Program-made: the position numbers and the translations under genes
Notes under the pieces: model-generated
The model's database searches: none
What the model was told of the DNA's origin: nothing
The model's input: only the letters and a program-made list of their open reading frames with translations
Shown here: positions 9,950 to 41,275 of the stretch, piece by piece
How the letters are laid out: each line of letters begins with the position of its first letter
Position numbering within the stretch: position 1 is the first letter of the stretch
Origin: Xestospongia bergquistia
Lineage: Eukaryota; Porifera; Demospongiae; Haplosclerida; Petrosiidae
Direction: 5' to 3'
DNA length: 64,000 nt
Assembly: GCA_963965975.1 (NCBI GenBank)
Contig: OZ014424.1
Span: 1,612,001 to 1,676,000, forward strand

Positions 9950-12900
9950 ATGTCTGGTGAGACCACCCAGCAAGAGCTGGTGTGGATGTCTCCTGAGGAA
10001 TATGAGAGTTCAGTTGGAGGTCAAGAAGATATTCAACTTGAAGATGCAAATCATACCAAGTTACCCAGATTAGGCCTACCAGCTATCCTAATTGAAAATG
10101 GTACATTCTAATTGTTTATTTCACATAATAATATTGGTCATTTAATGTCTAACATTATAATCTCTGTTATTAGGTATTCAGTTGAAACATAAAGGGGAAG
10201 CTCTGCCGTTTACTTTCTTCACTTACTGCCCTGGTCCTATGATTGATAACCCCATTAGAGTGGACTGGAAAATACTCTCTCAAAAGGCTATAGTTGGCCA
10301 CCACATTCACTGCTATCAGCTTGAACCTCGACAGAACTTACCTTTGATAATTAATCAGTGTAATATTGAGTATACACGAGCTTTGATTCTTATTACACCT
10401 GATGAATCCTTCCTTCTCTCTCGTGACTTTCAGTGGGAGGGAATGATTGCACCTCCATTTCCAGTTTGTGTCATAAATCAAGAACAAGGCCAGAAGTTAT
10501 TGGAAATTATTTGTCAAAATGAAATTGGAGATGTGATGGCTCGTGTAATTAGCTCTAGTGTCACTCAAGAGGAAGCTATGAGAGGAAAATCACCTTCACC
10601 AGAAAAGTTATCACTAACTTTAGAACAGGCAAAGGGTATGACACATAGTATACTTATTTAAACTTGTGTTGTGGTGCTTTTAGAGCAACTATGATCTCAT
10701 AGTGCTTTGTATGGTCATGTTTCTGCACCTTTAATTTCTAATTTGTCAACTATGAAACTATATACTATACTTATTGCACCTACAAAACTTAATGTTATCT
10801 TATGTTTAGGTAAGCAAAGGCGAGTTCCGCAATTGTTACATTATCCCAAGCATTATCTTGAGAAGAAATTAATAGAAATTATGACCTCGCCAACAACTGG
10901 TCCTTTTTGTGTCTCAGAAAATCGGGACCTTTTCCAGCAAGTCATGGAGGAGTTTTATAATTATGAATGTGCTGTAAGTCGAGAGCACTTTGCTATAGAT
11001 TGTCTAGTATCATGACAATGGTTATGTTGATCTAACTTTGTAAATGGCTAGTTTTTCTGAGTTCTCATTTTACAGATAGATGATGTAAGTCTTTTATTAC
11101 TTTTGAATGTAGAGAAAGCTTGAACAGCAGGAAAGTATTAAAGCATGAACCTATTTTTTAAATCCATGGCACACTGTGCATGCCAGGTAGACCTATAATT
11201 GTTTTAAACCATGTTATATATGTGTATATAATATTATTAATAATTATTATTAATTTATTTAATTATTAGTTAATTAATTTATTATTATTAATTATATAAT
11301 CTATTATTGTATTTCTTTTTACTCTGTAGGCTAAAACCAAACCACACAGTTCTTCAGCTAATAGACGAGTGTTTCAGAAATTGATAAAGTTTATTGATCA
11401 AGATGGTGTGTTCAAAAAAGATGCTCCTTTCTATGTCCTCTTAGTATACAGAGTTTTCAGGTAATTGGATCTGTATTTAATAATTATATTATATTATGTT
11501 GCTAGATATCAACAAGTTTATCTCTGTGAAGAACATAACCAATTTATTCACAAGTGTATTATGAAATTTGAAGAGATGATTGCAAACAAGATTCTTGTAC
11601 CAGTTATGAAATTCATTGACAAGTAACTACATTTTACTGTGAGACTACGTCAATAACTTTCTCCTCTAGTGGTGACTTTCTAATACAGTATAATGACGAC
11701 TCTGCTGATACTAGTGTTTTCCATTTATTGGATAGAGCTTGTATTGTTCTCATGAAAGAATCTGTGAAAATGAAGTCACGAGTACACCAAGGAGCACCTC
11801 CTCATCAATCTCTATTTTGCAAGATGATGTGGTGTAAGTAGTTAAGTTGTATACAATATTCCAAGGCAGTCCTTTAATTATTTTGGGTCATGTATTTATG
11901 TATACATGTAAATCCATTTAATATTTTCTGTAGCATGTGATTATGAAACAACAAATAAAGTTGTACTACATATTTACACTGCTTACACACATTGCCAACC
12001 TTGAAAACATTTTTTTTATCTGCTGTATTAGTCATAAATAATTGTTCTTTGATGCTTGAGTATGCTTCGATGCTTGAGTGTACCTTTAACTTCTATATTT
12101 CATCAGTAGTTGTTTGAGTGTCTGCTGCTTTTAATAACCCTTTATCATTAACAGTAATAGGAAAACCTTTCTACAATTATAGTCCTTTTTTGTATGCCCT
12201 CTGATTTCAATTTTGTGATTACAATAACAACAATTGGTTGTTGTCACTAGGCAACTAACAGGAAAAGGGCTTAGATCTGGTATATAGCACATTATATTTT
12301 TATAAAAACACATGTCAGCTTCCTTCTACAACAACTATATATCTACTTCATGATGTTAATAGCTTACCATCCTTTTAGTAACTGTGAGTCTAAAGTTCAA
12401 ATCTGTTTGTGGTGCTCAAGATGGTACCAAGACTTGGTATGACCATCTGACAAAGGTAAGATAACAACGACAGCTACTGTGAACACTACTTTGTTGTAGG
12501 AACCAGGAAATCATTATTTAGATAATCAATCTGTTGAGGAATTTGTCTCTGCTCTTAATCTTGGTCAAGAGCTCAAACTTCCGGTTGAAGCAGTTTTTGG
12601 TATTGAAGAGATGAGTTCATTGTTAGCATCTGGAGAAATTGTCCGCCCCTTCTGCCAGTTAAGGTAAGATTGTACAGTTTGTATCTTTAATTTCATGTTT
12701 ATGTTCCAGTAATTTCTTGAAGAAGGTGGAGCCAAATCTTCATGTAGCTGAAGACTTTTTAAAGCATATTATTGTTCGTCTTAGAGAACCATATCGTGTT
12801 TGTTTAGAGCCTGCAACAAAGAAACTGGAGCATATCAGTACCTATGGCAACCTCCTTGGAGCTATACAAGAGGTGACTAAGAAAACCAAGTTGTCATTAA

Positions 12901-13484
12901 TAAATTGTGTTGTTTCTATATAGGGTTTAACATTTTTAGACACTGTTCATGACGTGTGGTTGGCTAAGAACTGGCAACATCCTTCCTTTGATGCTGAGAT
13001 GCTGAAGTGGGTGCTACTTCTTTTGGGTGCTGTTGATGTGACTACTGATAAGACTCCGTCCTATTTGAAGGAGTTTATTTCTCAAGTGAATCATTTTGTT
13101 TGTTCACAGTACCATAAGGAGATTACACAACAGGTACATGTACATACTATAAGTAAGTTTAATTGTTTTGTTTAGGTTATTGCTGAAGTGAAGAAAAACT
13201 TCAACCATCTGAGTATCCTCAAATTTTCAAGATTGTTCAAGTCATTTTATATCTGGCCATTGGAGGTGAACTTTTTAACTGTTAACTCTGCCACTTTTAC
13301 TTACTAATAACATATCATTGGACATAATATTGGTTGTGGAAGTATTTTGCATATTCTGTTATGGTATGTATTTTCATTGACAGGTTGCTAAAGAATATTT
13401 GTTTAATTTCGGTCAGAAAATACCAGCTAGAGCCAATGTTAATGATAAACTAATTGTTGAGTTCATCACAGAGATTGTAGAAAG
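9950..13484 (+). other. RNF213-like gene: N-terminal segment, exons 1-12, with a PA-like stretch in exon 2
   Basis: Exons: 9950-10100, 10174-10635, 10810-10973, 11330-11460, 11506-11622, 11670-11833, 12379-12455, 12500-12663, 12710-12872, 12924-13133, 13176-13265, 13384-13484. The ATG follows an in-frame-plausible context and gives MSGETTQQELVW. Exon 2 contains an alternating hydrophobic pattern ending FPVCVINQEQGQKLLEII. This resembles the last strand-helix of protease-associated (PA) domains, but only that end is convincing, so I treat it as a suggestion. The remainder is helical and not assignable by eye; by position it corresponds to the N-arm and linker of RNF213. Introns 6 (11834-12378) and 12 (13485-13880) hold nothing recognisable. 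Confidence 0.7.
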
Positions 13485-14195: not shown

Positions 14196-17100
14196 GTATA
14201 TTACTGATATGTTGTTTGTTTGTTGAATTGAGTGTTTTTATATCTATCCTTTTAGAAATCTATTTCTGAGATGAGTGAATTCCAGTTGTTAGTCTTGTCT
14301 GTCTTGGAAAAGGTAATGTACTATTCAGTAGTGACTAGTGATTATAGTAATCCTTCTCTTTAGGAGTTGATCCCAGAGTCACGTAATCTTCAAGCTCCTA
14401 TTAAGGACTCCATCAAACCTATTTTAGATGACACCATTAGTTTATTAAGCTATGATGCTAGCTGGTTGGAAGAAGTTACTGCTCACCACAAGTTTGCATT
14501 TGGTGTTGTATCTGTGTGCTGTAACTTGATTCCTGTTGCTAAGAGACTGGACTGGACTTTGTCTTACAACCAAGTTGTTGAGAAATTAGGGTCTATATAT
14601 TCTTGCTATTGCAAAGCTAAAGGTCATTATATTTTCTATTGTGTGATGTATTGTACATGGAATATGTCTTGATATTTTACAACAGTAAGAGTCATAGTTA
14701 CTACAGCTACTCTCTTTATCTTTAGGTTTAGCTGGTGAAGACTGCTGGCTACGGACTGTCCCTGATGACATCTTAGCATGTTCTTGTGATGACATACTGA
14801 CCTATTTCAAATGGATTGTTGACATACAGCAAATATTAGCTGACTGGAAAAGAGAGTTCTCTGAGAAGACCCTTAATTATGACAGTATTCAGCATTATAA
14901 TCATATCTATAGCAACCTTGATAACATAGGAGCAGCTCTTTGTGCTCCATTTCTTGTTGCTGATCCCGAAGTTGCTGAAGGAGGACATTCTGAGTATTTA
15001 AAACTATTTGAAAGACTCAACTGTCATTTGATTAAATATATTTCTGGCCACCCTGAGGCTTCATGGTAAGTGTATACAATATTAACAATGATGTCATTTC
15101 AGGATTTTTTCCCACAGGCTCCTTTTGCCTAGCTTACTAACAGAGTATGGGATTGAAATCCCAGAGAAAATTGCTGTTCCTCTTTCACAACAAGTTGTGT
15201 TTCCTGGAGAGAAGACTGATGGTTATTTAGCTGTCACATTCAGTGAAATGTCTCCCTCATTTACTGGAGCTTTTTGTCCAGGTCATGATGTTTCATTGAA
15301 AATTGCAAGTACTGTCACTCTTTGCCAACTATTCAAACTTGTGCATGACTTAGACGAGCTTCTATCTCCTATCCAAGAGAACTTGGATCTTCTTATATAT
15401 TTTTTTCTTCACAAGAGTGCTATATTTGATACTTACCTTCAATATCAGTTAAGAAAGCACAGTGGTCAAAGCCAGGAATCTCCTCCATCAATGCAAGCTG
15501 CTGTCTCTTGTGTTCATACAATGTCTGGTTCCTTCTTAAACAGCAGTTGTGAACTGTTCAAAGGTTTAAGTATGAATATTTTAGCAAAAGCTCTCGAGGA
15601 AACAAAAGAACTAGTTGTCAAACTTGTTGAGGGTACTGCTCAGTATTGTGATGTTACAGCTGGTGGTAACTTACTACTTGAGAAGATGGATATTGTTGTT
15701 GAGTTTAAAGTACTTGTTGATTATGCCCAATACTTGAATCACATAAGTGATGTCACTCTTTGTCAACTGTTCAATCTTCTGAATGACTTATATGAGCTTT
15801 TATCTCCTATACAAGAGAATTTGTTGAGTATGAACATTCCTGCATTGTTTGCTATAGAGTCTAGTAAAAATAACCATGCTGCTCAAGTTCCTCTATATCT
15901 TAAAACAATGCTGAGAGAGTATATTCAGAGAAAAAGAATTGCTAACTCAGTCATTGATTATTTCACAGCTAAATGGGTAAGTATACATATACTAGACTTG
16001 TACATTGTTATATTTTGAACTGCTAATCCTTTTAGAAATCTATTTCTGAAATGAGTGAATTCCAATTGTTAGTCTTATCTATCTTGGAAAAGGTAATGCA
16101 CTGTTCTGTAGTGATTATATTGATCTTTCTCTTTAGGAGTTGATCTCAGAGCCCTGTATTCAAACTCCTATTAAGGACTCCATCAAACCTATTTTAGATG
16201 AGACAATAAATTTGTTAAGTTATGATGCTAGTTGGTTGGAAGAACTTAATCCTCATCAGAAATTTGCATTTCATTTTGTATCTATGTGCTGTTCCTCAAT
16301 TCCTTTGACTAAGAGACTGGACTGGATGTTGTCTTATAGTCAAGTTGTTGAGAAATTAGGATCTATTTTCTTATCGTATTGCAAAGACAATGGTCATTAT
16401 TTTTGTTGCATGAGAATTATATCATGGCACCTTTAAATGTGCATGATTGATGCTTGATATAGTGTGTATATGTAAACAATGTACTGCACACATATATGTA
16501 GTAAAACTGTAACATTTCCGGTATTATTTTTATTTTAGATTTAACAAATGAAGATTGTTGGCTGCAGGCTATTCCTGATGATGTTATAGCATGTTCTTGT
16601 GAGGACATGGAAGTCTACTTTCAGTGGATTGTTGACGTACAGAAAATATTAGCTGACTGGAAAAGAGAGTTTTCTGAGAAGACCCTTAACTATGACAGTA
16701 TTCAGCATTATTATCACTACTATATCAACCTTTATATCATAGGAGGAGCTCTTTGTACCCCATTTCTTGTTGCTGATCCTGATGTTGCTGAAGGAGGGCA
16801 CTCTGAGTATTTGAAACTATTTGAAAGACTCAACTGTCATTTGATTAAATACATTTCTGGCCAGCCTGAGGCTTCATGGTAAGTGCATGGTACAACTTTT
16901 CAGGAAGTATTTTTTCTCTTTTTATAGGCTTTTTTTGCCCAATTTGCTAATGGAGTATGGGATTGAAATTCCTGAGAAAATTGCTGTGCCTCTTTTGCAG
17001 CAACTTGTTTTTCCTGTAGAGAATATCGAGGGTTATTCAACAGTCACTGTGAGTGATATTCCTTCCTCACTTACCGGAGTGTTTTGTCCAAATCATGATG

Positions 17101-19355
17101 TTTCATTGAAACTCGCAAGTAATGTCACTCTTTGTCAACTGTCCAAATTAGTGGATTACCTAGATGACCTTCTTTCTCCTATCCAAGAGAACTTAGATCT
17201 TTTTATCTATTTTTTTCTTCACAAGAGTGCTATATTTCATACTTACTTTCAATATCAGTTAAGAAAGCACAATGGTCAAATTGAAGAATATCCTCTTTCA
17301 ATACAAGCTACTGTCTCTCGTGTTCGTATAATGTCTTGTGTCTTCTTAGATAATATGGGAAGAAACAGTGAACCATTCAAAGGTATATCATGGAAATGTT
17401 TAGCTGAAGCTCTTAAGGAAACAAAAGGACTACTTTTCAAACTTGTTGAGGGTACTGCTCAGTGTAGTGATGTTACAGCTGGTGGTAACTTACCACTTGA
17501 GAAGATGGATCTTGATATTGAGTTTAAAGTACTTGCTGATTACATTGAGTACTTACATAGTGGTAATAAAAACTATACTGGTCTGCATGATATTCAATGT
17601 ATGCTTGAGCTGTTCCAATGTATTCTGAATGTATATAGTGTGTGTGAACAGTACCACATGAAGGGATGTCTACAAGATGCTCGTCTACAAGAGATCAAAG
17701 CAATAGCTGATGATTTGCAGCAAGTGACTTGCCATGACCAACTTACACCAAAAGAGGCTATTGAAAAGGTTGAAAAAATATTACCAGCTCTTTTTTTGAA
17801 GAAGCAAGTGCTTAGTTACAATTGTCAATGTATGAAACTGTTTTCAGCAGTTGCTGATAGTGCTATTTTTTATCAGTTCATCAAAGACAAACAATTCTAT
17901 GGTGATGCAGGCCAGGAGGTGTTCCTACAGCAGTATGAATTTATAACAGCTCAGCTTCAACACGAGGACTATAATGAAGTGGTCTTGAATCACCTTCTTA
18001 TAGCATTTAAAGTTATTAGCCCATTCCTGGATGATGAACAGGATTTTGAAAGTCTTATGTCACAGGTAAATGAGTTGAGTATCACCACTGGTTGCCAGGA
18101 ACTACAGACTGTGAATAAAAACATCCATTTGGTACGACTATGGTTTTCTAGAGCTGAAAAGGATACTCTGGAGATGGTACCTGCTGAACTTGAGGCTATC
18201 TTGGGTAGTGGAGAATATCAGTTTATTTTTGGTAATACTTCTGATGGTGTCAAGGCTCAATTGTTCTTGAAGTATCAACCACCATCTGTTCTTCAGGCTA
18301 TTACTCCTATACGACCTTCACAGCCGCAAACTGACGTGTTACCAGATGAACGTTTGACAAGTCATCGTGATTCCTTTGATAATCCATCACGAGCTGCTCA
18401 TTTTCCTGGTGTTCATCGAGATAGCACTTCATCACCTCCTCCACCTCTTCGCATTCAGCGGTGGAATAGTGACCAAATTCGAGATTTTGAACAGCGCATT
18501 GGTTTCTTAGATCCAGAGCAAGATTTGAGTCTAAATATTAACAAATTCCTCATGTTCAACCAAAATGCCTACAAACTTCTTGAGCTTTATCAACGTCTTA
18601 GAGACCTTGGTCATCCTTTCTACACAGAATTAGAACCACAAAGAAAACTGACTAAACAAGACCAACCAAAGGTATATAGTAATATTTACTGGTGTCATGC
18701 TTGTTATCCATCAAAAGTGATTCTTGTTGATTATAATTGCCATTTGTGTCTGTTTCAGGAAGCTGCTGTTCCTTTTAGAGTATTACCATGCTCACTTAGT
18801 GAAAATGATGTCAAACAAAAGGTATTTATTAATTCATGCACGGATAATTCTATATATCTAAAAACATAATTGTGTGTTTACTGTTTTTCCTACACTATCT
18901 TCTTGACTAATTTTTGCTTTTTTGTCGCATTGTTAAGGTGGAAGAGGCAGAGGAAGAACTTAAAATATGGAGTCTGGATGTTGCTGATTTACATAAACAA
19001 TATGAGACGTTGCTGTTCTTCAGTATCCCTAAATTACGTCATGTTCATAAGAAATTAGTTGATGGTCATATGGATAATATAGTAGCAGAAATTAGCTTCT
19101 TGTTCAAAAACAATATTATTGTCAGAGAGAAGCTAAAGGCGACTGTTAAGGTAAAAAAGAAACTGTCATAACATTTATTCCTTACTATTGTCAGCATGCA
19201 AAAGTATGAGGACTTAAAATGTTACTACAAAAGACTTTTACATGTTTGATTTCACATTTGTGACACACCCATTATATATTTAAAGAATTGTAGGAATTTT
19301 AAAATTTAATGTTTTTATTCTAAGTATGTACATGTAGAATCTACCAACACACATG

Positions 19356-19393
<38 letters not shown>

Positions 19394-22300
19394 TAGTTAA
19401 TTCTTCCTCAAATTAAGGTACAGGTTGAGTCATGTTCTGCTCCAATGATAGTAGTTGGTTCATTTTTACACCAACTCTTTGTTGATCATGATTTGTCTCG
19501 CTTTGCTTTACAACCTCGCCATCCTTATCGCCAACTGCAGCGTACACTGTCTTCTCGATCTTCTACTGTGCTTCACTCTTGCCATGGACTTTCTCGTGTC
19601 CAGTTAATGTCTTTACTTATTAACTGTTATAATGGAGTCCCTGGTTCATTCCAACTCATTAGATGCAAACCTTCCACTTCAGAAGATGAACTGATGCTAT
19701 TTTTGAATAGGGCTGTTCAGTATTCTTTCCAGTATATGGTGGTGGGTGTGGAGCTGTTATCATATCAGTTACAAGAGGTTAGTAATAACATCTGGTACTG
19801 TTGGTACAAATACTTCAGGAATCAGATTGTTATTTTATTTTAATGAAATTTCTCTTTATTAGTTATTGCTGCAGTTTCAATTTAATGTTCGTCCTGCTGT
19901 GTTAACTAATGGAGGAGAGGGAGCTACCCTGCACTTTATTGAAACAGGTCCAACTATCTTGAGAGAAATACCTTTGATTATGGTGAAAGATCACAAGGTT
20001 AGATATTGCAATTGATATGCATAAAATAAAAAAGGAAGTACAGGTTACATATCTGGTTTATTTATTCCATATTTGAAAGTTGATTGTTGTTGAAGAACTG
20101 AGTAAACTTTCAAATATGGTAAAAAATATCATTTTTGGAAGTATAAGAATCATTTTGAACTTTTGTCTTAGACTTCACCATCTCCTAAAATAATCTTACA
20201 TGTCCTATCTCATAGGATGGTTTAGCATTAAATTATGAACGAGCTAAGAAGATATGTCGTCAAGGACTAATGGCTTTTGAAGATTTCCAATGCATTACTC
20301 TTGTTTATGGACACGCTGGTGAGTTAGTGATTAGAATTTATGTGCATATATGATTTACACTAGGTGATGGCAAATCTCATCTAATAAAGTCTCGTCTGCG
20401 CAATCAACTGTCTCATATGGTGCTTCATATTCCAATCAATGAAGCTTTCACTCCATTGTCTGCTATCAAGAAACTACAGAACTTACCTATGGATACTAGA
20501 GGCTGTTGTATATACTTTAACTTCACTGTTTTACCTCCCTCAGTGAGTACTGTTTTTGTTTGTATTGATATGAGCTCCTCCTTCTCTTTAGAGTGCTAAA
20601 AGCCACCAAAAAGAAAAGAAGCTTTATGACAAACTGATGGAAGTGGTGAACTGGTTTTTCTTTGATCTTTTAATTCTTGGTTATGTTGAAGACCCAACTA
20701 GTGGTGAATCCTTTAGGTTACCTGGAGGTCTATCATTGGGAATCTTTATTGAAGTAAGACAAAGCACTGCATGGTAAGAATATATGTCCGAGGTTTATAA
20801 TGAATTATTTAACTTATTATATTTTTTTGATCACATCAAAAAGGCACTGTTGAACTATATTTTAAGTTATTGACTTTACTATATGAAACTTCATATAGCA
20901 CAAGTCAACAATTAAGTACTGGTCAACAAACTCTATAATAAAATTGAAGAATAACAAATTAATAAACTACATAGCTGACAATTTCCATCTTTATCAATCT
21001 AGTATCAACTATTATCTCATAAACAAAAAAAAAGAGGACGACAGATTGACAGGCATATTGTTTCATTTAGAACTGACATTGTTAGATTTTGATGCCTTTT
21101 TTTGATTTTTTTTAACTATGAGTCTAGTTAGTACTTTGATGCACACATGCAAAACAATAACAGTTAAAGCACTTTATACTTATCTTACATGGTCATATGT
21201 AAGTGCTTTAACTAGTTATAGATAAATCAGTTAGTGATTCCACCAATCAGGAAATAAGTAGACATAACTCTTGTAGTAGTAATATTATATGTTAGTGCTC
21301 TTCATTTTCTGAGTCTCATTAAAACAAGGATTTTGCCTTTTCCATTTTATACTTCATTTTCAAGGATGGTCTAATCTTGGTTTCCAAATGTAGTGCCCTT
21401 GTCAAAGATTGCAAGTTGATTAAATAGGATGTTTTATCTTAGAATGGGTGACAAAGGTCTAAAAGTCAATAAATGTAGCATTAGGTCTTTAAGGGATAAA
21501 TATATTAAAAACAGCGTAAATCTTTATCACACCATCATACTGGCAGTAACTGTGTTGCTGGCAAATGGTACACTTGACAAAATAATTAACATTGATAAAT
21601 GTCTTTTCTAACTATTTTCAGCTTGGTTAAGTCTCTACTTCAAGACTACTTAATTATATTACTAGTTACATAATAATGTTAAATTTCACAAGAAAAACTC
21701 ACAAAAAACATGGTAAAAAAACAAAGAAAAAATTTGAAAATCATTTTAATTTTTAAATATTCCATTGAATAGAGCTCAAAGAGCTAAACAGATACCTATT
21801 TGCATATATTTACAGCTATAACAATCAAGATTTTTACAATTTAAAACACTGTTTTATAGGTTCCTTCAGGTGGTTTTGATATGAGTCCATCTGAAAGTTT
21901 AACAATTTTCTTAGAGAATGTTCCTGCATTAGGTCTTGTTGCAAACAAAGAGTATGTAGAGCCAAGACGTCCTTATGTTGTTGATAATGATGTCGAATTG
22001 ATTTGTAAATATTTGAAAGCTTATGAGATTGGTTGCAAGAAAGGCATCGATAAACTCTACAAAGGAGGTAAGTTAATACGATTGTTGTTCAATAAATGGA
22101 AAATGTTATGGTTTATAGCCATAGACTTATTTTTGTTCTTTAGGTTTTCGTAAAGGCAAAGAGACTCCAATGATTAAGTTTAGTAAGGGTCCAGTCCTAG
22201 AAGTTGAGGAATGCCATTATCTTTTGGACAAATACACTCCAGCTCACATGAAGTGCAATAAGACAACCCAGAAATTGTTTGTCAAGTAAGTATTTGTATC

Positions 22301-28300: not shown

Positions 28301-31300
28301 AATAGTGTGACTTTGCTCTTTATTTCTTGTAGGCTCTACCACCTAATGTCTTCATTATTGGTGCTTGTAACTCGCATCGTGGTGATAGCTTAGCTGCCTT
28401 GGCAGCTGATGAATCTTGGATTCGTAGCAACTATTATGTACGAGTGCTCCATCCAACACTAAACATGTTGAAATGGGATTATGGCTCTTTAGATGAATAT
28501 CAAGAAAGAGACTATATCAATGCTAAGCTTTGTCTCATGCATCAAGAAATGCAGAATGTAGAATTAGCTAATCTAGCAGAATTAATTGTTTGCAGTCAGA
28601 ATATGATGCGAGCTTTTGCCTATAAACAGCTTCGTTCTCTTGGTGTGGATGAGATAAATGCTGTAAAATGTTCAAAGAGCTCTGTAAGTCAAAGAGACAT
28701 TCAACGTGTCTTTACTTTCTATGAATGGCTTATGAAAGTATATGTTAAATGCCAACCTTATGGAGCTAGTGAAGACTATCATCAGGTAGCCATAATGGTT
28801 TCTCTAGCCCTTGTTTATTATTTGCGATTGGATGATAACTATAGAGCACATTACATTGAGGCTATGCATAAATCAGCTCATTTAACTGGTGGGCTGCCCT
28901 TCACTGATATCCTTCAGAGGGAGGTTGATTGGTACATTAGTGAGATGGATATTCCTCCTGGTATTGCAAAAACTGAAGCCCTTAAGGAGAACATATTCAG
29001 CATTATAGTATGCACTATGACACATACACCACTCATTATTGTTGGCCCACCTGGATGTTCCAAGACCCTCTCATTCAACCTTGTGACTGCCAATCTTCGA
29101 GGGCAAGAATCCAAAATGAAGCTTTTCCGAGATACTGAGATATTCTATTCATTGGATCTACATTTTTACCAGTGTACACGTCATACAACTCCTAATGAAA
29201 TTCAAACTGTATTTTCTAGGTCAATTAACCGGCAACATACTTATACACGAGCTGCATTACCAATCTGTTGTGTTGTTTTAATAGATATAATTTGTCCTTC
29301 TTCTGAGAACTTACAGTCACTGAACTTCTTGCATTACTATCTTGACAGACGTGAAGTCTCTTTTGTAGCTATCTCAAATCATATGCTTGATGCTGCTAAA
29401 ACTAACAGAGCTGTTTCTCTATTTCGATCTGAGCCTTCTTTGAATGAGTTACGTACACTTGCTAAAGGTTGTCTTTGTGACACTCCTGATGATCCACCTC
29501 CTGAAATAAAGAAGGATGTTGAGTTAATTGTTAAGTTTTGTCTGTTGTATCACAAGTTCATGGAGCATTCAGATTTTCGACGATTTTTTGGTCTAAGGGA
29601 CTTTATTCATTTTATTAATTATCTCAAACGACAACGTGGTGTAAAGGGCATCACAGAGAGACTGGTAATGCAGGCTTTAGAGAGAAATTTTAATGGTCAC
29701 AAACTGTTTGACACCATTTGTAAGGAATTCTTGAGTGTGGTAAGTTATTGCTTCACCAAAGTTAATATAATTGTTTTCTCTTTCTTAGATGGATCCTACT
29801 AATCAACGACGACACAGTATTCTTGAAGTTCTTCATGATAGTCTTAAAGATCAACCTCAACTGCACTCTGGAGAGAATGAAGTTCGGTACAAACTCATAA
29901 TTGACTCAAGTGAAGACAATTCTCTACTACATTTGCTGTTTGCATTTGGTATTCTTAAAGAGAGAGATACAAGGACTTATGTGTGCAGTGACTTTCCTGG
30001 AGATTCTCATCAACAAATGGTACTTTAGTTACTTTAGTAGCTTGAATGCATGGTTAAGAATATCCTAATTTTGGTAAATATATTAGCATATGGTGTTTCT
30101 CAAAATAAATTAGTTGTTGATGCTCAGGAAGATTAAATAATATACCTTTTTCAATTTCTTTGAGTCATATAGTAAGGAAATAGATGTATAAGAATAGTAG
30201 TAGGCCAAGTTAACTCGTGTCATTTCAGTGCTCTCAAAATAGTTTGGTTCATGCAAGCAAAATGATGGTTTTACCCCTACATAATATTTGTAGATAACAA
30301 CAAAATCACTATATTTTACATTCAGGATATCTATTTCTTATTATTCTTTTTGTTTGCTGTTTTGTTTAGATGATGCTATTGTAGTTCACACTTGTTGAAA
30401 TGCAACGTTTTGTTCATTTAAAACAGTATTTATTAATTGTACTCTGTAGAGTAATGATGTTTTTTCTCTTGTCAACAGATCAACACAATAGCTGCAATAT
30501 GTCACTCAGCTGCTGCAGGGCATACTGTTATTATGAGCCAAACAGATGAACTTCTTGAAAGTTTCTATGACCTCTTTAACCAACAATTCCATCGCATTGA
30601 TGACCCAAAAACTGGTCCTCGATTCTATGCTAATGTTGCTATCGGTGCTCATCATAAACCTTGTCATATACATCCTGCATTCCAATGTATTGTTGTGGTC
30701 AAACAATCTCAGATTGATGACATTCCTCATGCTTTCCTGAATCGATTTGAGAAATACAGTCTAACTCACAGAACCTTATTGGATGCTGTCCTAAATAAAC
30801 AACCAGCATATTTAAAGTCTGTTATACAAAGGGCGTATGAAAAGGTAAGTGGTATGTAAGCAGACATGTATGCAGTTAACTCTGCTATTGCCAATATGAC
30901 TTTTAATTTCATATCAATAAAAACTTTTGACTGTGTATTTTTAAAATTATCTAATTTTTCCCTGTAGGCTTCTGAATTTATTGAGCATGTTGGTGGACCT
31001 GCAAATCTGTACGGTCTTCATGATGACACTTTAGACTCGCTTGTACTCAGTTTGTTACCTCCAGTTGGCTTCCAAGACTTTATAAAAATTGACAAACCTG
31101 AGAAACCAGAGACCATTCCTCAAGGAATACATCCTGATGTGTTTTTGTTGAAAAAACTACTTCAAGCCTTGAGAAAAAGATCTGGATTTAGACTGCCTCG
31201 TGTAAGTTAACTTTAAGCTTTAGTGACATCTAGTTTGACACCATTGACTACCACATATACATACCAGAATTTTCTTTCAGAACTTTATAAGAAAGAAAGA

Positions 31301-34300
31301 TAAAGGCTACAAACAAAGACAGCCTTTAACTATTAGTTGATTAAGTATAGGCTAAGTAATGTTTTTCTTAGCTTTGCTTATTGATGCTCCTTGGTATGTA
31401 GTGGTAATTGCTATGTCAAGAATTACTATTAAGATCTATGTATCATTTAAGAAACCAAGTAAAATAGCATTGTAGATGAGCAAGTTGGTCTGTAAAGATT
31501 AACAACATAAGTGCAACATCTGTTCAGCTATATTTGTTTATTATTGTTATTTTTTCATCTTATTTAGTTCACTCATGAAGAATTAGCTGGTGATGCTGAA
31601 TATATTATGGAACTAGTTTCTCGTGACTCTCAATTTGCTGGTCAACTGTCTGCCTTAACTCATGAGGATGTTCTTCAAGCTGTTCCTGAAGCATTACAAG
31701 GACTATATCACACAAACAAAGGAAGCCGGACTGACCTCTCCATTAATGCTTGCATGGTTATATCTGGTATGTATTATTATTACAATAGGACACGTGTGAT
31801 CATTGCTATTTGAATACATCATAATATTCACAACATTCTATATGCCCTATAGTATTTTTGCAGTGGTTGATACGTCACTTATGTAAGAGATTAATGCAGT
31901 TGATGACTACTGAGGCACTTACTACTGTCTATCAATCTTTGCCACATTCATATACTGAGACTTATCTTAAGCATCAGAGTCATTTCAATTTGCAGGCTCT
32001 GGTTGAAAGGCAGTTACAAGTAATGGAACTTGATGATCGGATTGACAGGTAGATGACTAAAGCACTAATGTAATGTAGTATTGTTGTTGTCTTATAGATC
32101 CACTACTGGAACAGCAAATCGTCTTCTTCTCTTTACACGATCTTCTGCCCTCATCCATCAACTCCCAGCTAGTTATCCTGTTACAGGTTCTTCCTCTCAG
32201 CTGTCATGTGATTACGATGATCTTATACGTAACTTAGTCTATTACTACACAGAAGATGTGTGTGTCTGTAAACTTTCCAGTATCACCTCACAAGCTAACA
32301 TGGCAGAAGTCCTTAACTCTTTTTGGCTGTCCAAGAAACAGCGCATTATCTTGTTAGTAGCTAATATGAAGGAGACGTCTCGTGAAATGATTAGTCATTT
32401 GAGATTGATGATTGAGGAAAATGACACTGGAGAGAAGCTAAAGCTGTTTGTCTTACTTCTTCACTTTCCTCCATCAATGTTTACTACTCCCTGCTATCTC
32501 ACTCTCTTCAGTAATACATGGGATCATCATTACTTAGATATAATTGGTCAAAATACCACTGGTCAAGTGATGGACATCTGTGAGTGGCTCTCTCTTTGGT
32601 GTAGTTATCTATCCCCACAACACAGCCCTCAACAGCAAATCTCTATGCATCTTTCCACTCTTCTCCTGGAATCAATACCAACCATATCCTCACGAGTCTT
32701 CTTTGGTAAAGTAGAAGGTGCTTCGTTCAATTGCTACATGGATGTACCACGTCGTAACAAAGCACTCCAGCAGTTATTTGAAACTGGAGTTGGTGAGATT
32801 CTTTGTGAGAAATTTCTCAAGTATTGGGAGCCAAGAGTCATGTTGGAATACTTGGAAAAAGCAGCAATGTTAACAACTAAAGTCCAGACTAATGCTCTTA
32901 GTATAACAGACTCTCTGCAGACCATTTTACGGGACACATTTTTTGATTACATTGTCTACATGATTGCTAAAATGAATGAAGATATGAACATTGATATTCT
33001 CATGGATCCTAATTGTTCTCAAGTGACACGTGATCTTTTCTTTTCTCTGTTACATGTCTATCCCATGCCTAAACTTTCCCAGTTGAAGGCTCTCAGTAGT
33101 TTTGAACACAGCATCTCTAGTCTAGAGTCCTCTCAGCATGCTCCTTATATACCTGGGTTCCCATTTTATCGAATGGTATCTATAGCTATGGAAAAAATTA
33201 TTGATCAAGCAAGGAAGGAGATCAATCAGCATTTGGATACCCTCCGGGAGTTTCCTGATCCTGTGTTGTCCATATCTCAGATGAGTATTACATCATTACC
33301 AAAAGTTATTGAAGATAAAGGTTATCTCGTTGTTAGTATGCAGCAAGCAATAGAACGGACCATTAAGCAGATTCTTGAGGTAAGAACCTAATCCATATCA
33401 TAATGGTGTTCTCTAATGTTGATTCTGTGACTAAGTTATCTGGATTTGGTGTATGAATTTATAGGAACCAGTGTTTAGAAATCCTTTGAGTTAGACATGT
33501 ATGTTCATACATTTACTTGCTCCTTTGTCTTTCCTTATAGTCAACACAGCAGACACCACTTAAAGTTGCACTTCAAGCTATGATTGATAATCCTGACCTC
33601 ATGAAGAAATACAGTGAAGCTTTTATACATCAAAAGTTGCGTCTTGGGGCTAGTTCAGCTGGTATCAGTTTTTGTATTCTTCGTCTGACCTTTACCCAGC
33701 TCCATCCTAACAAAGAGCTCCTTACATGTTTAATTCTACTCCACGTCTGCATGCACATTTATCAGTTGGATTTATCTCGTTTGGTCCAAGTACTTCATTA
33801 TTTGGATACCTACCTTGACATGGCTGCTGTTGTTTCTGATGACCCATTTGCTGAAGCACATCCTTCACCAGCTGCATCTTTCCTGAGTGCTGTCCAGGAG
33901 AGTGGTGATCTATTAGGTCAACCAGGTGACCTTGGCAAGTATGTATTGAGAATTTTGTTTAGTGCTCTTGCTGGATCAGTGTTGGATCAAAACCCTGAGG
34001 ATAGTGTCACTCAAGAGAATATTTTCTTGTGGTGTGTAGTCTACAGAGATGTGGTAAGTGTTGTTGATATTCTATACTGATGTTTCATTTTATCCCCAGT
34101 CCTTCTTATGATTATGGAGAGCTTTTTTTTTCTATTTAGATGTCAATGTCTGCTGTCAAGGATTATTTGTACAAGAATCTCACACAGATATCAGAAACCC
34201 AGCACAATATTATGCAAGCAGCATTCTTAGTGGTCCAAAGTAGCTATGGTTATAATGAGGTTGAGGCTCTCAGTACTGCTAGAAAAGTGTTCAGTATTCT

Positions 34301-37300
34301 GTTTAGTATTTACCTCTCTGAGAACATGGAGGTATTTGTTAGATATAAATTTGATATACCGTAAGGGTATAAATTTTCGTGGGGGATTTAATTTTGCTGT
34401 ATTCGTGGGTTGTTGTTTTATCACGAAATTTAACTTTTACTCCACCCACGCATAATCATGCAAAGGGATTCATGTCGGTCACTTTTTTCTCTTTTACATT
34501 GTCTGAAGTACTTCTCCGTCAACTGCCTTCCAGATTTTCTTGTATATATGGTACCTTCTCATCATAGATTTATAGGAATAGGTAGCCATATTTCGCGAAA
34601 ATCACGCTTGTGATCACAACACGTGCCTGATACCACACCCAATATTAATACTTCACACCCACTAAACACGAAAATTAATACCCACGAAATTTAAATAATA
34701 AAGCAAAATTTAAAAAACACGGAAATTTAAACCCTCGAAAATTTGTACCCTTACGGTATTTGGCAGACAAGTGTCAATTGGCACTTGACAATGATATATT
34801 TGCTCATTTTTCTCCCTTAGATGAAGCAAGAGTTTTCCCCAAGACTCCAAAATGTTGTCAGCATTATAGTTCAAGAATTGGTTGGCTCCAGTGTTGATGT
34901 TGCATTACAACATCATAACACTCAACTGAGACACATTCTAGAAGGTCTCTTTTCTCACTATTTTTCAATCCATCGCCCCACACCCAATGCACAAGATTGT
35001 CAGTGCTTCTTGGAACTTGTCAATAAGAACACCCATTGGAATGTTGATTATTTGTTTGTTCAAGTTAGAGTTCTACGAGTGTCTGAAACTCTTGAGACTG
35101 AGTCTCCACGTCCACAGGTCTCATCTCCTGATGAGGAACATGAAAGCCGTGGATGTATTCCTATGTCAGTATATAAATACTATTTGACTTTGTTGCTTGA
35201 TAAAGCTGATGTCAGCAATATAGGCATGACATCATTGGCCTTATACAAACCTTGGGTAAGCTGGTTATAAACAATTCTTTGGAATATTCTGAGTTAATAT
35301 GGTTATAAGTGAGTCTATACCTATTACCTTGTTTTCTTAGGTTCGTGATTTGGTTGGTAAAGTTTTAGTTACTGGTCAACATTCTACTACTGCTGGACCT
35401 TATATTCCTACCTTTTATCAAGAATGTACTGGTGTTAAGTGCCCTGCTACAGTTAAGGTTAGTATAATATAAGTGAATGTCAGGACTTATGATACCCATG
35501 CTTTAGAACAAGTTGATGCAGCAACCACTGGCTCACTTGTACTTTGTGACAGTACTCCATCATCTCATGAGTCATGATTTTAACCTTACTAGTCTTGTGA
35601 GAGTGGCAAATGCTATCTCTGAAGTAAACTACTACAATGGATTATATTACATGATCACTTTATAAACCTTAATTTTTAGAACCTTGAAGAAGCTGCTACT
35701 TTACTCCAAGACAAGGTTTTACATAACATTGAAAGACAAGCTGTTGTTCAAGCTGTTATTCAACAGCTAGCCAAAAGTCTAAATCCTTCTGACCCCAGTA
35801 GTATTAGTGCAGTAAGTATAATATTATCATCAACTACTGTAGTAATTCATATAATGATTGTTTTGTTTAATAGATTGCCACAATCATCGCTGACATCAAT
35901 TATCTTCTTGACAATGAGAGTATGGGAGGTGGAGATGCTGGTGGCCATGGTCTAGCATTGTCTCTCCACCTTTTAAAGGACCTGCATAGCTTCAAAAAAT
36001 TTACCAAATTGCTGGGACCTAATTCATTTTGTAAAGATTTCAACTGTTTGGTTCGGCTGAGTACTGCCATTGAGCTCCCTGAAGAAGAGTACTTGTTCCC
36101 TTTCTTGGTATATGTGGGTAAAGGAAACCTACTAAGGGATCTTTATGAACGTGTTGGGCGTGCTATGCATACTGTACATACAAGTAGAGGTCGCAAAACA
36201 ACACCATTAACCTCTTTAGCTCAAGAATGGTCAGTAGCTTCTACTTGCACAATGTTGGAAATTATATATTTTTATCCAATCAGGTCACAAGGTCAGGTGA
36301 CTATCTCTCTACCTGATGGTCATGAGGTTCATGGAGAGAGATCTAGTATTTTTAGAATGGTACTCTGGCTTAATGTGTATTACAAATTTTATTGTCAAAA
36401 GGTATAAAACTGTCTCTATTCATTTACTACTCTATTATAATGTTTACATCTATTAAGAAATCTTCACCAGTTCTTGTGGACATGCTCAAGGACCAGTTGC
36501 TGTATGCAGTACAACCTGCTCCACTCAATAAACTGATTTCTTGTTTCTTGGACCCTTCCAAAATGATAAGAGAAGCTAGTCTTGACAGCAATTCTCCCAC
36601 TTACGATGATCCTATATTTACTTTGTTTAATCCAGAGAGCAAGGATGATGGTAAGAGGATTGATGGACAGGGAGATTAATAAGTGGATTGATGGATAGAC
36701 AGACAACTGGAGAGATGAATGCATCATGTACTTGAGATAAATGGATAGTATATGTCATATGATATTGTATAGATTGGCACATGTTGTATAAACTTGTATA
36801 CATTAACATCAAATTGGTAACTGATCTTGTTATGTTGTAGATCCTTCTGATGCTGCTCTTCGTCATGCACTAGCTAATATGATAGCTGTAGTAGTTGTAG
36901 CTCCACCTACTAGTACTCATTTGTGGTTCCATATGTTTGCAGCAGACCAACTTGCTCATACACACATGGCTGGATTTATGGTAAGATTTAACATTTAAAG
37001 AACAGTTCTTATACCTACACTGCTACCACACCGCAGTTTCTATCTATTATTATACCATCTGTTCGGTAATCATTTCATTACACTATTACAGCACAAACTT
37101 AGCATAATACACTCAATTTGTATTGGTTAAGGTTACAATTAAAGTTTGTATCCGTAAAAGCTGATAACCTTAACTGATACTTAGTAAGAATTAGTAAATT
37201 TGATCATTGTTAGAGCTATACAAAACTAAACTATCCTTGTATAACTGGTATTATTTTTCTTTGATAGTTGGAGACACCAGTTGGTCAAGATGATATCTAT

Positions 37301-40300
37301 TATGATACTGGAGTTCAACTAACTGATAACGGTTTCTATGGACAACAGAGTTACCTAAAACATGCTACCCGTGGTACTTTGAGTCTCCAGTCGCTTTATC
37401 TTCTTCTTTGGGCTAATGCTGGAGCATTCTGTGTTGGTCTTCTTACTGATACTGAGAGTGAGAGTAAAATGTGTGGTTCAGTCTTCCCAGAGTATTTCTC
37501 TGTTCGTCAATTCTGTATGAAACAACTGAAGACATTATGGGGTCACTTGTCAACTAGTTTGGGTATCTCTGTTGAAGAGAGGTCATTTTTGGTATCCAGA
37601 ACAATGTGGAATTTGCTTAAGGTTAGAGTTATCATAGTTATCTCAGTGAATGGGCCATATTAATTCTTCCTTTGTGCTTACATTTGTCTCTTAGTTTGCC
37701 TGTGGAAAGTCCAAGATGTTAGCTGGTAAATTTTCTACTATTGCTTCACTAAACAACTATGAAACTACATGGTATAATTCTATTTTCATGCCAGTATGGA
37801 ACATCCTTAAAAAAGAATATGCAACTTATGCTAACTTGTATAACCATGACATCTTCAGAAACATCAAGTTAGTAATGTATTTAACAAAATTGTTTTTAAT
37901 CTGTAATTATAATAATGTTACAATGCAAAATTACTAACAACAGCTAATAAAGTAAAGTAAGACTTGTGATTGTGCACAATCAGAAGCTTGTTTGTAAGAA
38001 TAGTACAGTTGAAATAATATTGATTTCTTTGTTTTATTTCAGAACACTTGAGGCTTGTTATCCTTGTTTCACAACAGAGAGTGCTCTCTTACAAGCTCTT
38101 CTCTCTAATACTAATATTGGTGACTGTATTGCTAGTAGTGAACACCTATTAGCTCAACTAGCATTATTTCGACATCAACTTGAGTTGGGTGGACTGTTGT
38201 TGACTGATTTGGTAGAGCTATATCAATGGTTTCATCAAGAACTTGCTTATGTAATCACTCGAAGTGATGCTGAAACCATTTACATATCTCGTGCAGTGCA
38301 GGTCCTGGCTAAGAGTTATTCACCTGAGGAAGGAGAGAGGTTACATAACTTGTACAAGAGAGTAAGAGGTACTTTTGTTTTAGTGTTAGTGAAATACAAC
38401 AGTAGTTGTTGTGACTTTGTAGCCATAGTTTTATATGTAATAATTTGTTTCATGAATTCATTGTATATTAATTTGTTTGCTAGATTCTTACAACCAATAC
38501 CGAGAGTTGACTGGTCTGAATGTATCTCCTCTTGAAGACACTACTCCTCTTCTTCATGTCCTATCTTGCAGTACAGATAGTGATGGTAGCCCTGACCTCC
38601 TTTACAATATCATCAGTGACATTGTAAGCTATTTGGAGGAGTCTTCTAATTTTACTTATTTATTTCATTTAAAGGTCACAACACACAACAACTTCCTTAT
38701 GAAAGCTGAGAGTGTAATTCGCTCTGATCCTGACTCTCCTTTGGCTCGCTACCTACCTAAAGAATTACCACGTGTTCATCCCACAGAATTCACTGCTCAG
38801 AACTGCATTATAGAACAATCTCAAAGGTTAACATAAATGACAAATGTTTACTCCAGGAACCTGTGGACTTGTGTCTAATCCTATTATTAGGAGTTTCATT
38901 TACATTTAGTTCTTCTCTTTCTGTAGCCTCCATGGAATGACTGTGTTTAATCTTCTCATTAACAGTCGTTCAGCTCTTCCTTCACCATTGTATGATGTAA
39001 CTGGATGTCACACTTCACTTCCTTGTTGGCTGCCTAGTCTTATTAACCTTCAGCTACTCCAGGAAGACATCTTCTCAGCTCATGTTGCTGGGAAGCCATT
39101 GATTGGGCCACCACAGAGTCTAAGAACACACTTTGCATTCAGAGATGCTCATCATCACGCCAAAGACAAGTAAGAAAAAACACATGCTTTATGACATTTT
39201 ATTGTGATATGTTTTTTCAGCTTATCTGCTATTGAGGCTGACTTGGAAACAATATCCAGTAAACTCCTTGATGAATTCAAGGTATTCCTCCTTGTTTTAT
39301 GCTCATATACATGTATCTTGTTGTTTCAGTGTCCAATGAATGAACATACTATTAAACTTTTGGAGCAACATTTTCATAGTGCTGCCTATCATACTATTAT
39401 GGAAGTTCTTTGTGGCTTAAGAGGTGTAGCTGGACACTTAATAAAGGTAGATAATTACTATACTTGTACATTATATTGATATTATCTTTGTTCTCAGAAT
39501 CTGATGGGTATTAGTCAAAGTGAACTGATAGATTTAAATGCAATTACAATTGCTGAGTTCTTATCATCTGTCTTTGAAACTCATGAGCATTTGAAGAGTG
39601 TCACTGGTAGCAAGAATAGTGTTTTACACGAGATTGGCATTTCCAGGTTACCATCATGTAGTATTGAATTGTATAAAGAGAGCATTTGTTTTTGAGTTTT
39701 TACATCATTTGTCAATAATTGTTAATGTGTTTGTTTCTTTCTCCTTGTAGCCTAACTCCTAATCAATTCATAGCTCTAGAGAACATCTCTCTCACTCACC
39801 TACATGATGCCTTAAGATGGTTTGTTACCTGGGTCAGTCAAGGATGGTATGAGTTCTGCTCTTTGCCTTATTCAATGAAAATCAGGTTGAGTGCACCAGA
39901 TATGGAGGCACTCTATGCGTTACCAGATCATTACACAGGTAATATAGAAGCTATTGTCATATTGGAATACTGCTTCATTATATATTAACAGAGCCTCATA
40001 GTCAATTGTTGAGAGAACTGAAGGCATTGGTTATGGTACTGAGTCATTTTGAATCAACTTCTACTATCACATCTATGGCTCTTAAAGACAGTCAGGTAAG
40101 GAAGAATGCAATAGTAGATCCTGTTATTCCTTTGTCTTTCTCTCTCTAGCTTTCTATTGTTGAGTTTCTATCTCGTCTTGGTGAATGTACTGAACAAGAA
40201 GACTTGATGCAACTTGTTCCCGAAACAATTCTTATTGAAAACTATGTTGCATTCCGTGTTGTTCTTAAACAGTCAGTCTTAGTACTAACAATTGAACTTA

Positions 40301-41275
40301 ATTATTTTTTTGTGTACATGTAGGTTAATTTCTCGTCTTCAAAAGCAGTTATCAAGTGGAAGCCTCTCTCTGCATCCACACAAGAAATGCTGGGAAGACT
40401 TTGTCGATGATCTTTGGAAGAACAACCTCTCTCATTTCCGTAATGGAAATTATTCGTATGCTGTTGTCTCTACTGCTGATCAAAGGAGGCGTGACTATTC
40501 ATTACGTAACATTGATCAGAATGATGAAGACTTACTTAATGATTTAATGACTGCAGGTGTATCTGAGAGTGAACTTCTCCCTGATACTGATAACGAAGAA
40601 TCAAGTTCTCAATCACCATCTCTCTCCTCTCGATTTTCACATCCAGTGGGTCCACATCCCTTGCCCAATGTTGATGTAGAAGATGTTGAAAATTCTTTTG
40701 CTACTAGCTTCTCCTCACCTAAACGTAAGAATCATTTCACTCCTCTGTTGACTTTAATATTTTACATTATTTGAAAACTTTTAATAGGTAAAGGTTTATG
40801 TGTATTTTTATTTCTAGGAGAGGCCAGAACTAAAAAACTGGCAGAGTCTTTCACATGTAAACAAGTGTGTGAGTTTCTTCAGTCAATTGATCTTCAGGAA
40901 TATGTCCCTCAGTTTGAGGATTATGATATCAGAGGAGACATTCTCCTCACTGCTGGTCAAGGTAAAGGGCTTGAGGATCTTGGAGTAGTTAACCCACTTC
41001 ATCGTCTCAAAATATGTGTCCTGTTTCGCCGCCAACTAGAGGGTATGAGTAAGATTGCTAAGCGCTATCCTGTAGAAGAAGTAGTCCGTTTCTTGCACTC
41101 TATGAAGATGAGTGAGCATGTTGAAAAATTTGAGGAGCATAAAATTGATGGTGAACTTTTGTTGGCAGCATCTGATGATGCGCTTGAAGTCTTGGGTGTT
41201 GTGAAACAAATCCAACGTATTGCTATCTCAACTCACTTCAAAAACTACATCAGTCCTCGTTTTACAACCCTCTAA
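9950..41275 (+). CDS. RNF213/mysterin-like giant AAA+ protein with C-terminal tandem SAM domains, about 66 exons, about 6,061 aa
   Basis: The ATG at 9950 opens exon 1 (9950-10100); exon 66 ends with TAA at 41275. Every intervening exon joins through GT-AG in a consistent phase, total 18,186 nt. The family call rests on collinear RNF213 landmarks: a YVLTLDYTLKMLNIHERCE lead-in to the AAA3 P-loop GETGVGKT (about aa 2753), the AAA4 P-loop GPPGCSKT (about 3216) with sensor VAISNHMLD, and the INRLEK-like LNRFEKY block after AAA4. Human RNF213 (5,207 aa) is a ubiquitin ligase that coats bacteria and acts on lipid droplets. No RING or RZ finger can be found here, and two SAM domains form the C-terminus, so ligase activity is doubtful. 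The sub-regions are annotated separately. The one weak junction is exon 41/42 (31756/31864), where I chose a GTTATA donor because the stronger GTATGT donor ten bases on breaks the frame. Confidence 0.88.
13983..15822 (+). repeat. Intragenic tandem duplication, unit 1
   Basis: This unit aligns with 15823-17558 at an offset of about 1.77-1.84 kb, including exon boundaries and splice phases (exons 14, 15, 16 against 18, 19, 20 have lengths 57/57, 259/256 and 340/340 nt). The introns differ in length; the largest difference is an (AT)n expansion in intron 13. The last 80 bases or so (15742-15822) are not in the parental order: they repeat 15307-15387, so the junction is chimeric. Confidence 0.85.
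14145..14198. repeat. (AT)n then (TATG)n microsatellite in intron 13
   Basis: About 38 bases of alternating TA followed by four TATG units, starting six bases inside the intron. The equivalent intron of the second duplicated unit (15977-16035) is only 59 nt and lacks it, so the expansion followed the duplication. Confidence 0.9.
15823..17558 (+). repeat. Intragenic tandem duplication, unit 2
   Basis: Second copy of the exon block. It starts within exon 17 at the TTGAGTATGAACATTCC equivalent of unit 1 position 13983 and runs into exon 21 to about the sequence encoding DYIEYLHSG. The reading frame is open throughout and splice sites are kept, so both copies are probably translated. Confidence 0.85.
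19359..19391 (+). repeat. (CT)n tract serving as polypyrimidine tract of the exon 24 acceptor
   Basis: About 16 CT units run directly into TTGTAG, the acceptor of exon 24 at 19397. The microsatellite therefore provides the pyrimidine tract for splicing. Confidence 0.85.
20216..22836 (+). other. RNF213-like gene: AAA2-equivalent module, exons 26-32
   Basis: Exons: 20216-20318, 20364-20542, 20592-20753, 21860-22067, 22144-22285, 22461-22674, 22727-22836. A Walker A motif is split by intron 26: GHAGDGKSH (about aa 2352-2360). It is followed by CCIYFNFTVLPPS and the WFFFDLLILGYVEDPTSGE block, which resembles the RNF213 AAA2 region. In human RNF213 the AAA2 unit binds ATP without evident hydrolysis. 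Its position before AAA3 and the retained lysine fit that role here. Intron 28 (20754-21859, 1.1 kb) contains only AT-rich sequence that I cannot assign. Confidence 0.7.
23634..28470 (+). other. RNF213-like gene: AAA3-equivalent module, exons 33-36 and start of 37
   Basis: Exons: 23634-23941, 26064-26338, 27929-28004, 28056-28258, and the beginning of 28333-29739. Walker A is GETGVGKT; Walker B reads VTVFLDDIN (about aa 2953), where the usual DE pair is DD. Sensor 1 is IIGACNSHR, matching the ACNPYR-like motif of the family. The two longest introns of the gene lie here: 23942-26063 (2.1 kb) and 26339-27928 (1.6 kb). Both are AT-rich with no gene I can support. Confidence 0.8.
28860..30844 (+). 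other. RNF213-like gene: AAA4-equivalent module, rest of exon 37, exons 38-39
   Basis: Exon 37 (28333-29739), exon 38 (29789-30019) and exon 39 (30479-30844). Walker A is GPPGCSKT at 29044-29067. The family-typical QCTRHTTPNEI block follows at about 29173. The Walker B position reads VVLIDIICPSS (29272-29304), where RNF213 has LDEVGLAE, so the catalytic acidic residue is replaced by isoleucine. Sensor 1 is VAISNHMLDAAKTNRAV. Exon 39 contains IVVVKQSQIDDIPHAFLNRF, the conserved block that follows AAA4 in RNF213. Confidence 0.82.
30968..40724 (+). other. RNF213-like gene: post-AAA shell region, exons 40-65, no RING or RZ finger seen
   Basis: Exons: 30968-31201, 31568-31756, 31864-32048, 32098-33379, 33541-34053, 34140-34331, 34821-35255, 35341-35457, 35507-35623, 35680-35811, 35874-36401, 36458-36650, 36841-36980, 37268-37621, 37695-37867, 38043-38368, 38484-38623, 38675-38826, 38927-39169, 39221-39281, 39330-39446, 39498-39646, 39751-39938, 39992-40095, 40150-40271, 40324-40724. 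The stretch with LMQLMTTEALTTVY and the later LRHALANMIAVVVVAPP match the order of the E3-shell and C-terminal helices of RNF213. I searched the translated exons for cysteine/histidine spacings of a RING and of the RZ finger and found none. Exon 65 ends in an acidic, Ser-rich linker. Confidence 0.75.
34357..34758. mobile_element. Foldback/MITE-like element in intron 45 (402 bp)
   Basis: The ends are inverted repeats: TACCGTAAGGGTATAAATTT at 34357 and its near complement ending ...CCCTTACGGTA at 34758. Imperfect inverted complementarity continues inward (AAATTTTCGTGGG-type motifs on both arms). No coding capacity. The target duplication is at most 2 bp (AT or TA, ambiguous). It makes up most of the 489-nt intron. 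Confidence 0.75.

Follow-up and report, generated by a model that had tools for sequence, protein, structure and literature searches.

The question raised by a giant gene of the sponge Xestospongia bergquistia is whether a protein built on the motor of the vertebrate ubiquitin ligase RNF213 (mysterin; PDB 6tax and 8s24) can do its work without transferring ubiquitin. The gene lies at positions 9950 to 41275 of the window, the 64,000-nucleotide stretch analysed here (assembly GCA_963965975.1, contig OZ014424.1, positions 1,612,001 to 1,676,000, forward strand). Its product shares with RNF213 the order and sequence of the AAA core, and differs from it in having no RING finger, no RZ finger, two terminal SAM domains and neither of two Walker B glutamates. 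This RNF213-SAM gene is no lone oddity but a member of a family of 25 related loci in the same genome. Since the RING- and RZ-less, SAM-tailed motor is common to the paralogs, a non-ligase machine is the best reading of the locus; judged from the sequence, there is about an even chance that it belongs to a derived RNF213 subfamily that has lost the ubiquitin-transfer module, carries a terminal SAM instead, and acts as a ubiquitin-free coat-forming or scaffolding machine.

The gene was delimited with a small Viterbi gene finder that was trained on the open frames of the window and blind to the exons of the first-pass annotation; its range, 9800-41400, followed the outer limits of that annotation's finding, and starts were permitted within the first 600 bases only. 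It returned a single + strand chain (9950..41272) of 67 exons and 5,957 amino acids with zero internal stops. Comparison with a paralog lengthened one exon and added another (37268-37621 and 37695-37867), giving 68 exons and 6,028 amino acids, 71 more than before, a 13-amino-acid exon of the paralog's model being left out of the corrected one. A separate prediction on this paralog (C14:3412001-3438394), made with the same trained parameters, yielded 68 exons and 5,569 amino acids, also stop-free. Matches in the paralog's DNA exist for 67 of the 68 window exons, with both splice dinucleotides kept there for 57/68 and the same exon recovered in the paralog's own prediction for 58/68, and neither a stop nor a frameshift interrupts any of the 68. 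The full-length, in-frame gene of about 6,061 amino acids claimed at first pass is in line with the corrected model. A 277-exon model, obtained with the first settings of the gene finder, was discarded as over-splitting the gene. The features of the gene, and of the DNA just beyond it, are the following:

9950..41275, + strand: RNF213-like giant gene of 68 coding exons and about 6,028 amino acids; the start codon is uncertain, the paralog's model beginning 12 amino acids farther upstream.
15440..17249, + strand: N-terminal half enlarged by about 510 codons, an internal duplication seen as an alignment gap in the 93%-identical paralog; coordinates hand-counted.
20364..20542, + strand: exon with a further P-loop, GHAGDGKS, labelled AAA2 by eye from its position relative to the canonical copy.
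23634..23941, + strand: exon with the AAA3 Walker A, GETGVGKT.
28056..28258, + strand: exon with the AAA3 Walker B, which reads FLDDIN in the window copy.
28333..29739, + strand: AAA4 exon; the Walker A GPPGCSKT is retained, and the Walker B reads VVLIDIICPSSEN against the sister copy's VVFMDEAGLPEES.
31864..36229, + strand: putative equivalent of the RNF213 E3 scaffold (approximate limits), without a RING and with a gap at the position of the canonical copy's RZ finger.
36841..39646, + strand: putative equivalent of the RNF213 C-terminal domain (approximate limits), with stretches well conserved across paralogs.
40324..40724, + strand: penultimate exon, in which a conserved W..FVDDLW block is accompanied by an acidic linker rich in serine.
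40818..41275, + strand: last exon, with SAM1 at 40853-41017, SAM2 at 41069-41221 and the stop codon at 41273-41275.
41860..42587, + strand: partial, SAM-less tandem copy of 39894-40617, beyond the stop codon and outside the gene; ends hand-counted.

The tandem copy at 41860-42587 duplicates the exons immediately upstream of the one for SAM, with 96% protein identity over 99 amino acids.

The two C-terminal SAM domains announced at first pass, of a module type that commonly joins proteins to one another, are both confirmed by Pfam in the last exon (PF00536 2.3e-23 and PF07647 1.2e-20, in two stretches, at 82.7 bits against a curated cut-off of 23). Among solved SAM chains the nearest are those of liprin-beta-1 (3.2e-11) and C. 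elegans tir-1 (1.4e-5), followed by SARM1 (0.001), Shank3 (0.005) and DGK-delta (0.017), with Shank2 falling within 0.001-0.02, so that the tandem SAMs of SARM1/tir-1 and liprin-beta-1 are the closest solved arrangements by sequence. SARM1, tir-1 and liprin-beta-1 are not known to have an AAA motor, and the SAM domains of SARM1 lie between its ARM and TIR domains and build its octamer. SAMD9 and SAMD9L, large innate-immune NTPase proteins, likewise carry a SAM domain, but theirs is N-terminal and their NTPase is of another type. It could be argued that the SAM exon is a separate short downstream gene joined to the body by gene modelling only. This is scarcely credible, as a SAM stands at the same place in 17/18 copies examined, the window's included, the preceding exon of the C12 and C4 copies has a comparable W..FV.DLW block, and the predictions on the sister and on a further paralog, copy B, also join the SAM to the body.

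The absence of zinc fingers was approached by profiles and by patterns. A Pfam run of the kind the first-pass annotation had proposed for RING, RZ and SAM, made on the 2,296 amino acids that follow the AAA modules (first model, without the later 71 amino acids), placed SAM alone above cut-off and found no RING or RZ, and the same scan gave the RZ of the canonical C12 copy at 3.8e-20. A pattern scan of the three forward frames of 9950-41275 returned zero RING patterns and zero C..GH; two chance-like matches, one in the AAA3 exon and one adjoining a stop, came from the loosest RZ pattern. The tails of four SAM-clade paralogs had no RING pattern either; a single chance-like C..GH lay in a stretch from C2, and copy B had one loose match to RZ. 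As positive controls, the C7 copy was recognised by its RING and RZ and the C12 copy by its RZ. The absence of both fingers noted at first pass therefore stands. A genome-wide RZ search gave nine matches, none within the window, and is not exhaustive because it missed the RZ finger of the C7 copy, interrupted by an intron. The RING of that copy was not recovered by genome-wide searches with PF13920 and PF13639 (150/269 and 150/378 candidates scored), which therefore count neither way.

These misses provide what can be said for the notion that ubiquitin ligase activity survives by way of a diverged, unrecognisable zinc finger: Pfam alone is weak for an RNF213-type RING, the one in the C7 copy reaching just 11.8 bits with PF13639, below cut-off, and the intron-split RZ of that copy escaped detection. 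The notion is nevertheless very unlikely, given that no RING pattern occurs in the forward frames of the window gene or in the four paralog tails, that C..GH is absent from the window gene and occurs once, chance-like, in a C2 tail, and that the position of the RZ finger falls in a gap when the profile is aligned with the canonical copy, an alignment of low confidence at that point.

The relation to RNF213 is clearest in the motor. A joined stretch of 1,597 amino acids matches mouse and human RNF213 in PDB, the best match being 6tax with an E-value of 6.3e-55 over query stretches 31-78 and 267-1007, which bears out the RNF213 AAA core of the first-pass annotation. We take the numbering of the AAA modules to follow the RNF213 structure papers. 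Pfam alone gives weak AAA matches below cut-off, and the AAA1-AAA2 part has no match in PDB at E 0.01. Beyond the motor, a profile of the post-AAA part of the SAM clade (six sequences) was compared with that of finger-bearing copies (three sequences), giving collinear matches in the C-terminal domain (E 1.7e-5, HH probability 78%) and in the shell, or E3 scaffold (E 1.6e-4, HH probability 51%), against a best E of 0.5 for the reversed-query control. Weak homology, in collinear order, to both the E3 scaffold and the C-terminal domain of RNF213 seems to persist in the SAM clade and in the window gene. For an N-terminal CBM20, Pfam gave no match in the parts scanned, the first 479 amino acids and exon 22.

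The first-pass annotation treated a single gene, the missing fingers and SAM tail of which it read rightly, and missed both the 25-locus family and the RZ-bearing relatives. A genome search with the AAA4 exon gives 51 matches, and 25 loci show at least 42% identity: four on C14 (among them the window), nine on C12, a single one on C4 and eleven on C2, including C2:9839611, which is a partial AAA4 match only. The AAA4 of the SAM family is 30-38% identical to that of other relatives. Outside C2, 13 of the 14 loci have a same-strand SAM match that starts 10.0-12.6 kb downstream of where the AAA4 exon starts; the 13 ends read as sequence carry a tandem SAM in the window, the sister and copy B (the second of copy B being weak) and a single SAM in the other ten. 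In the C2 cluster all four copies examined (of 11) have a tandem SAM by tblastn, and the one scanned with Pfam scores 55 bits in two stretches. Overall, a SAM tail is present in 17 of 18 examined copies, seven tandem and ten single; this count covers four of the 11 C2 copies, includes C12:1688742 despite one in-frame stop in its AAA4 exon, and sets aside C12:1641733 and C12:1788080, which are partial 3' ends with a SAM and no AAA4 match. The sole examined copy without a SAM, C14:1550943, is truncated, has an altered AAA4 exon and Walker B, and is followed by kinase frames. By eye, from the gene model, the stretch C14:1540001-1549600 holds a truncated RNF213-like copy and then coiled-coil protein kinase and Hsp70-like frames. 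In the AAA4 tree the C12/C4 and C2 groups have support of 1.0 and the deeper joins 0.22-0.70, and with only one canonical outgroup the tree is silent on the monophyly of the SAM copies; the proposed SAM clade is based on identity (at least 42% versus 30-38%) together with the shared SAM tail.

The same genome harbors RNF213 relatives that keep their fingers and share the AAA core with the SAM-tailed gene. The copy at C7:7366201-7375200 has a RING by pattern (CQDC...CDNNHMFCKAC...CHIC) and an RZ by Pfam (1.8e-12). The copy at C12:934501-954500 has an RZ and no RING, the stretch between its flanking matches to human RNF213 measuring 54 amino acids versus 117, with no RING in the DNA of that stretch. 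Unlike the window gene, neither copy has a SAM_1 match in the genome-wide search. A second C12 copy, at 2.44 Mb (C12:2442800-2446000), shows an RZ match and no RING in the 3.2 kb read; the RING state was examined in these two of the six RZ-bearing C12 loci. Three states thus appear to coexist in this genome, RING with RZ, RZ only, and neither finger with a SAM. The two C12 copies are natural RING-less RNF213s with an RZ. Two further RZ fingers, C14:4382528 and C14:4399891, lie in open frames of 1,879 and 1,869 amino acids with no AAA4 match nearby, and are perhaps ZNFX1-like.

What a RNF213 motor might do without these fingers is suggested by work on pathogens. According to one such study (PMC11549300), RNF213 forms dense coats, the growth of which is cooperative and ATPase-dependent; on the T. 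gondii vacuole these form with a dead RZ finger and require intact Walker motifs in the two active AAA modules, and on two bacteria they are lost upon RZ mutation. The same study reports that RING deletion left the ubiquitylation of the two bacteria unaffected and partly impaired that of the T. gondii vacuole, and that RZ mutants failed on both bacteria and on the vacuole (PMC11549300). With RING deletion mild and RZ mutants failing on all three targets, RING loss alone would mean little, a point that the first-pass annotation missed.

By analogy with RNF213, the protein would recognise a target, be it a microbe inside the cell, the vacuole around it or some other membrane; the ATPase ring would serve to open or load; and SAM-SAM contacts, taking the place of ubiquitin-driven recruitment, would build a coat or scaffold by which the target is marked or walled off with no ubiquitin being conjugated. 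Such ubiquitin-free assembly fits a family that has neither RZ nor RING, keeps its ATPase motifs in almost every copy read and ends in a SAM. Of the different machine proposed at first pass, the RING- and RZ-less, SAM-tailed motor is real and family-wide, and a polymerising SAM module is a hypothesis. In 15/16 family SAMs (the sister's SAM being left out) the front is acidic and the last helix basic, with charge differences of 6-17, the sixteenth showing a difference of 1, and six other SAMs of the genome range from 4 to 12. This asymmetry is compatible with head-to-tail stacking and is no proof of it. A single-sequence AlphaFold model of the SAM exon had a mean pLDDT (predicted local distance difference test) of 32.6 and was not used.

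Alternatively, the SAM tail could be a one-to-one recruitment adaptor for another protein with a SAM (kinase, signaling scaffold or distinct E3), the motor serving ubiquitin or signaling in trans. SAM domains often heterodimerise, possible partners are at hand among the 70 SAM_1 matches of the genome, some of which come from the family itself, and 10 of the 17 SAM tails read have a single SAM. Even so, this is rather unlikely: a SAM with faces of opposite charge (15/16) fits self-stacking at least equally well, and the tandem resembles that of tir-1 and SARM1, the latter a homo-octamer according to PMC7688312. A dense cluster of SAM matches on both strands, C1:8475885-8685891, is without an RNF213-like AAA4 match.

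The copy in the window is a peculiar member of the family with respect to its motor. Compared with its sister (C14:3424840, 93% identical), the glutamate of the AAA4 Walker B is replaced by I, although 18/19 other copies aligned retain it; in AAA3 the glutamate is replaced by D, where 9/9 other readable copies have FLDEIN or FLDEVN, a count leaving out 10 C12/C4 copies unreadable there. Both glutamates are kept in all eight other copies read for both modules, the truncated C14:1550943 excepted, and the Walker A motifs of AAA3 and AAA4 are both intact in the window copy. By alignment order the two positions correspond to human E2488 and E2845, and the E2488A and E2845A mutants of human RNF213 show no coat formation (PMC11549300). 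The window copy most likely binds ATP without normal turnover, is probably hydrolysis-poor or decaying, and, with both glutamates lost, represents the motor of the family badly; the first-pass annotation overlooked this loss. It may be a passive partner of the sister or a copy that is starting to decay.

That the window copy is a decaying duplicate of the sister, an early pseudogene in which the glutamate losses reflect decay and not design, is a serious possibility, though short of even. Besides the glutamates, replaced here and so widely kept elsewhere, it is favored by the roughly 510 extra duplicated codons, by the partial 3' duplicate adjoining the gene and by an excess of amino-acid change in the motor. 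Over AAA3-AAA4, with changes polarised by copy B, the window branch has 33 nonsynonymous and 15 synonymous changes and the sister branch 11 and 20 (Fisher p 0.005, uncorrected; the partition is one of three that overlap), which points to relaxed constraint. There is no such excess outside AAA3-AAA4 (22/17 on the window branch versus 15/4 on the sister's, p 0.15), the 68 exons are free of stops and frameshifts, and the SAM exon is 97% identical to the sister's, its 152 codons differing by 4 nonsynonymous changes and no synonymous one. The ratio of nonsynonymous to synonymous divergence (Ka/Ks) between the two copies is 0.37 over 5,437 codons. Synonymous divergence is 0.26 for AAA1-AAA3, 0.03 for the C-terminal domain and nil for the SAM exon, a pattern suggestive of gene conversion in the 3' part.

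Several of these observations weigh against a ubiquitin-free coat built by this protein. The homology to RNF213 beyond the motor is weak, the Walker B loss speaks against the window copy coating alone by the known route, and the excess of nonsynonymous change in its AAA3-AAA4 falls within the motor itself. As regards the tail, charge asymmetry is missing from the second SAM of copy B, a charge difference of 12 is reached by one SAM of the genome that is unrelated to the family, and the charge control is thin, two pairs among its six SAMs being near-identical. Since SAM domains also engage in one-to-one binding, assembly does not follow from the fold.

Elsewhere in the window, three large ankyrin-repeat frames follow the gene in a row (45774-48728, 53059-55560 and 57197-60466). 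On the - strand, a 649-amino-acid frame at 1942-3891 has a Roc/Ras-like match below threshold, and 61722-62627 matches POT-family (PTR2) transporters at 7e-9. In the genome at large, wnt matches at three places mark an animal, and the demosponge Amphimedon has three Wnt genes.

An RNF213-SAM fusion was not found described in the open-access literature searched, which omits most subscription papers and preprints. An expansion of RNF213 in symbiotic bivalves is reported (PMC9993606), and expansion as such is therefore already known. In its widest form, the proposal is that an animal lineage turned the RNF213 ligase into a ubiquitin-free assembly machine by keeping the motor, losing the fingers and adding a self-stacking SAM, then expanded to about 25 genes, with certain members, the window copy among them, acting as ATP-locked partners that tune the assembly of active ones; this remains speculative and on balance doubtful. 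Mammalian mutants split the coat formation of RNF213 from ubiquitylation, and the sponge genome appears to have done so naturally. With the RING and RZ, RZ-only and SAM states side by side, a ubiquitin-independent role of the RNF213 motor becomes directly testable, and the family would serve as a natural experiment on whether assembly on a target, with no ubiquitin, is a way for RNF213 to work.

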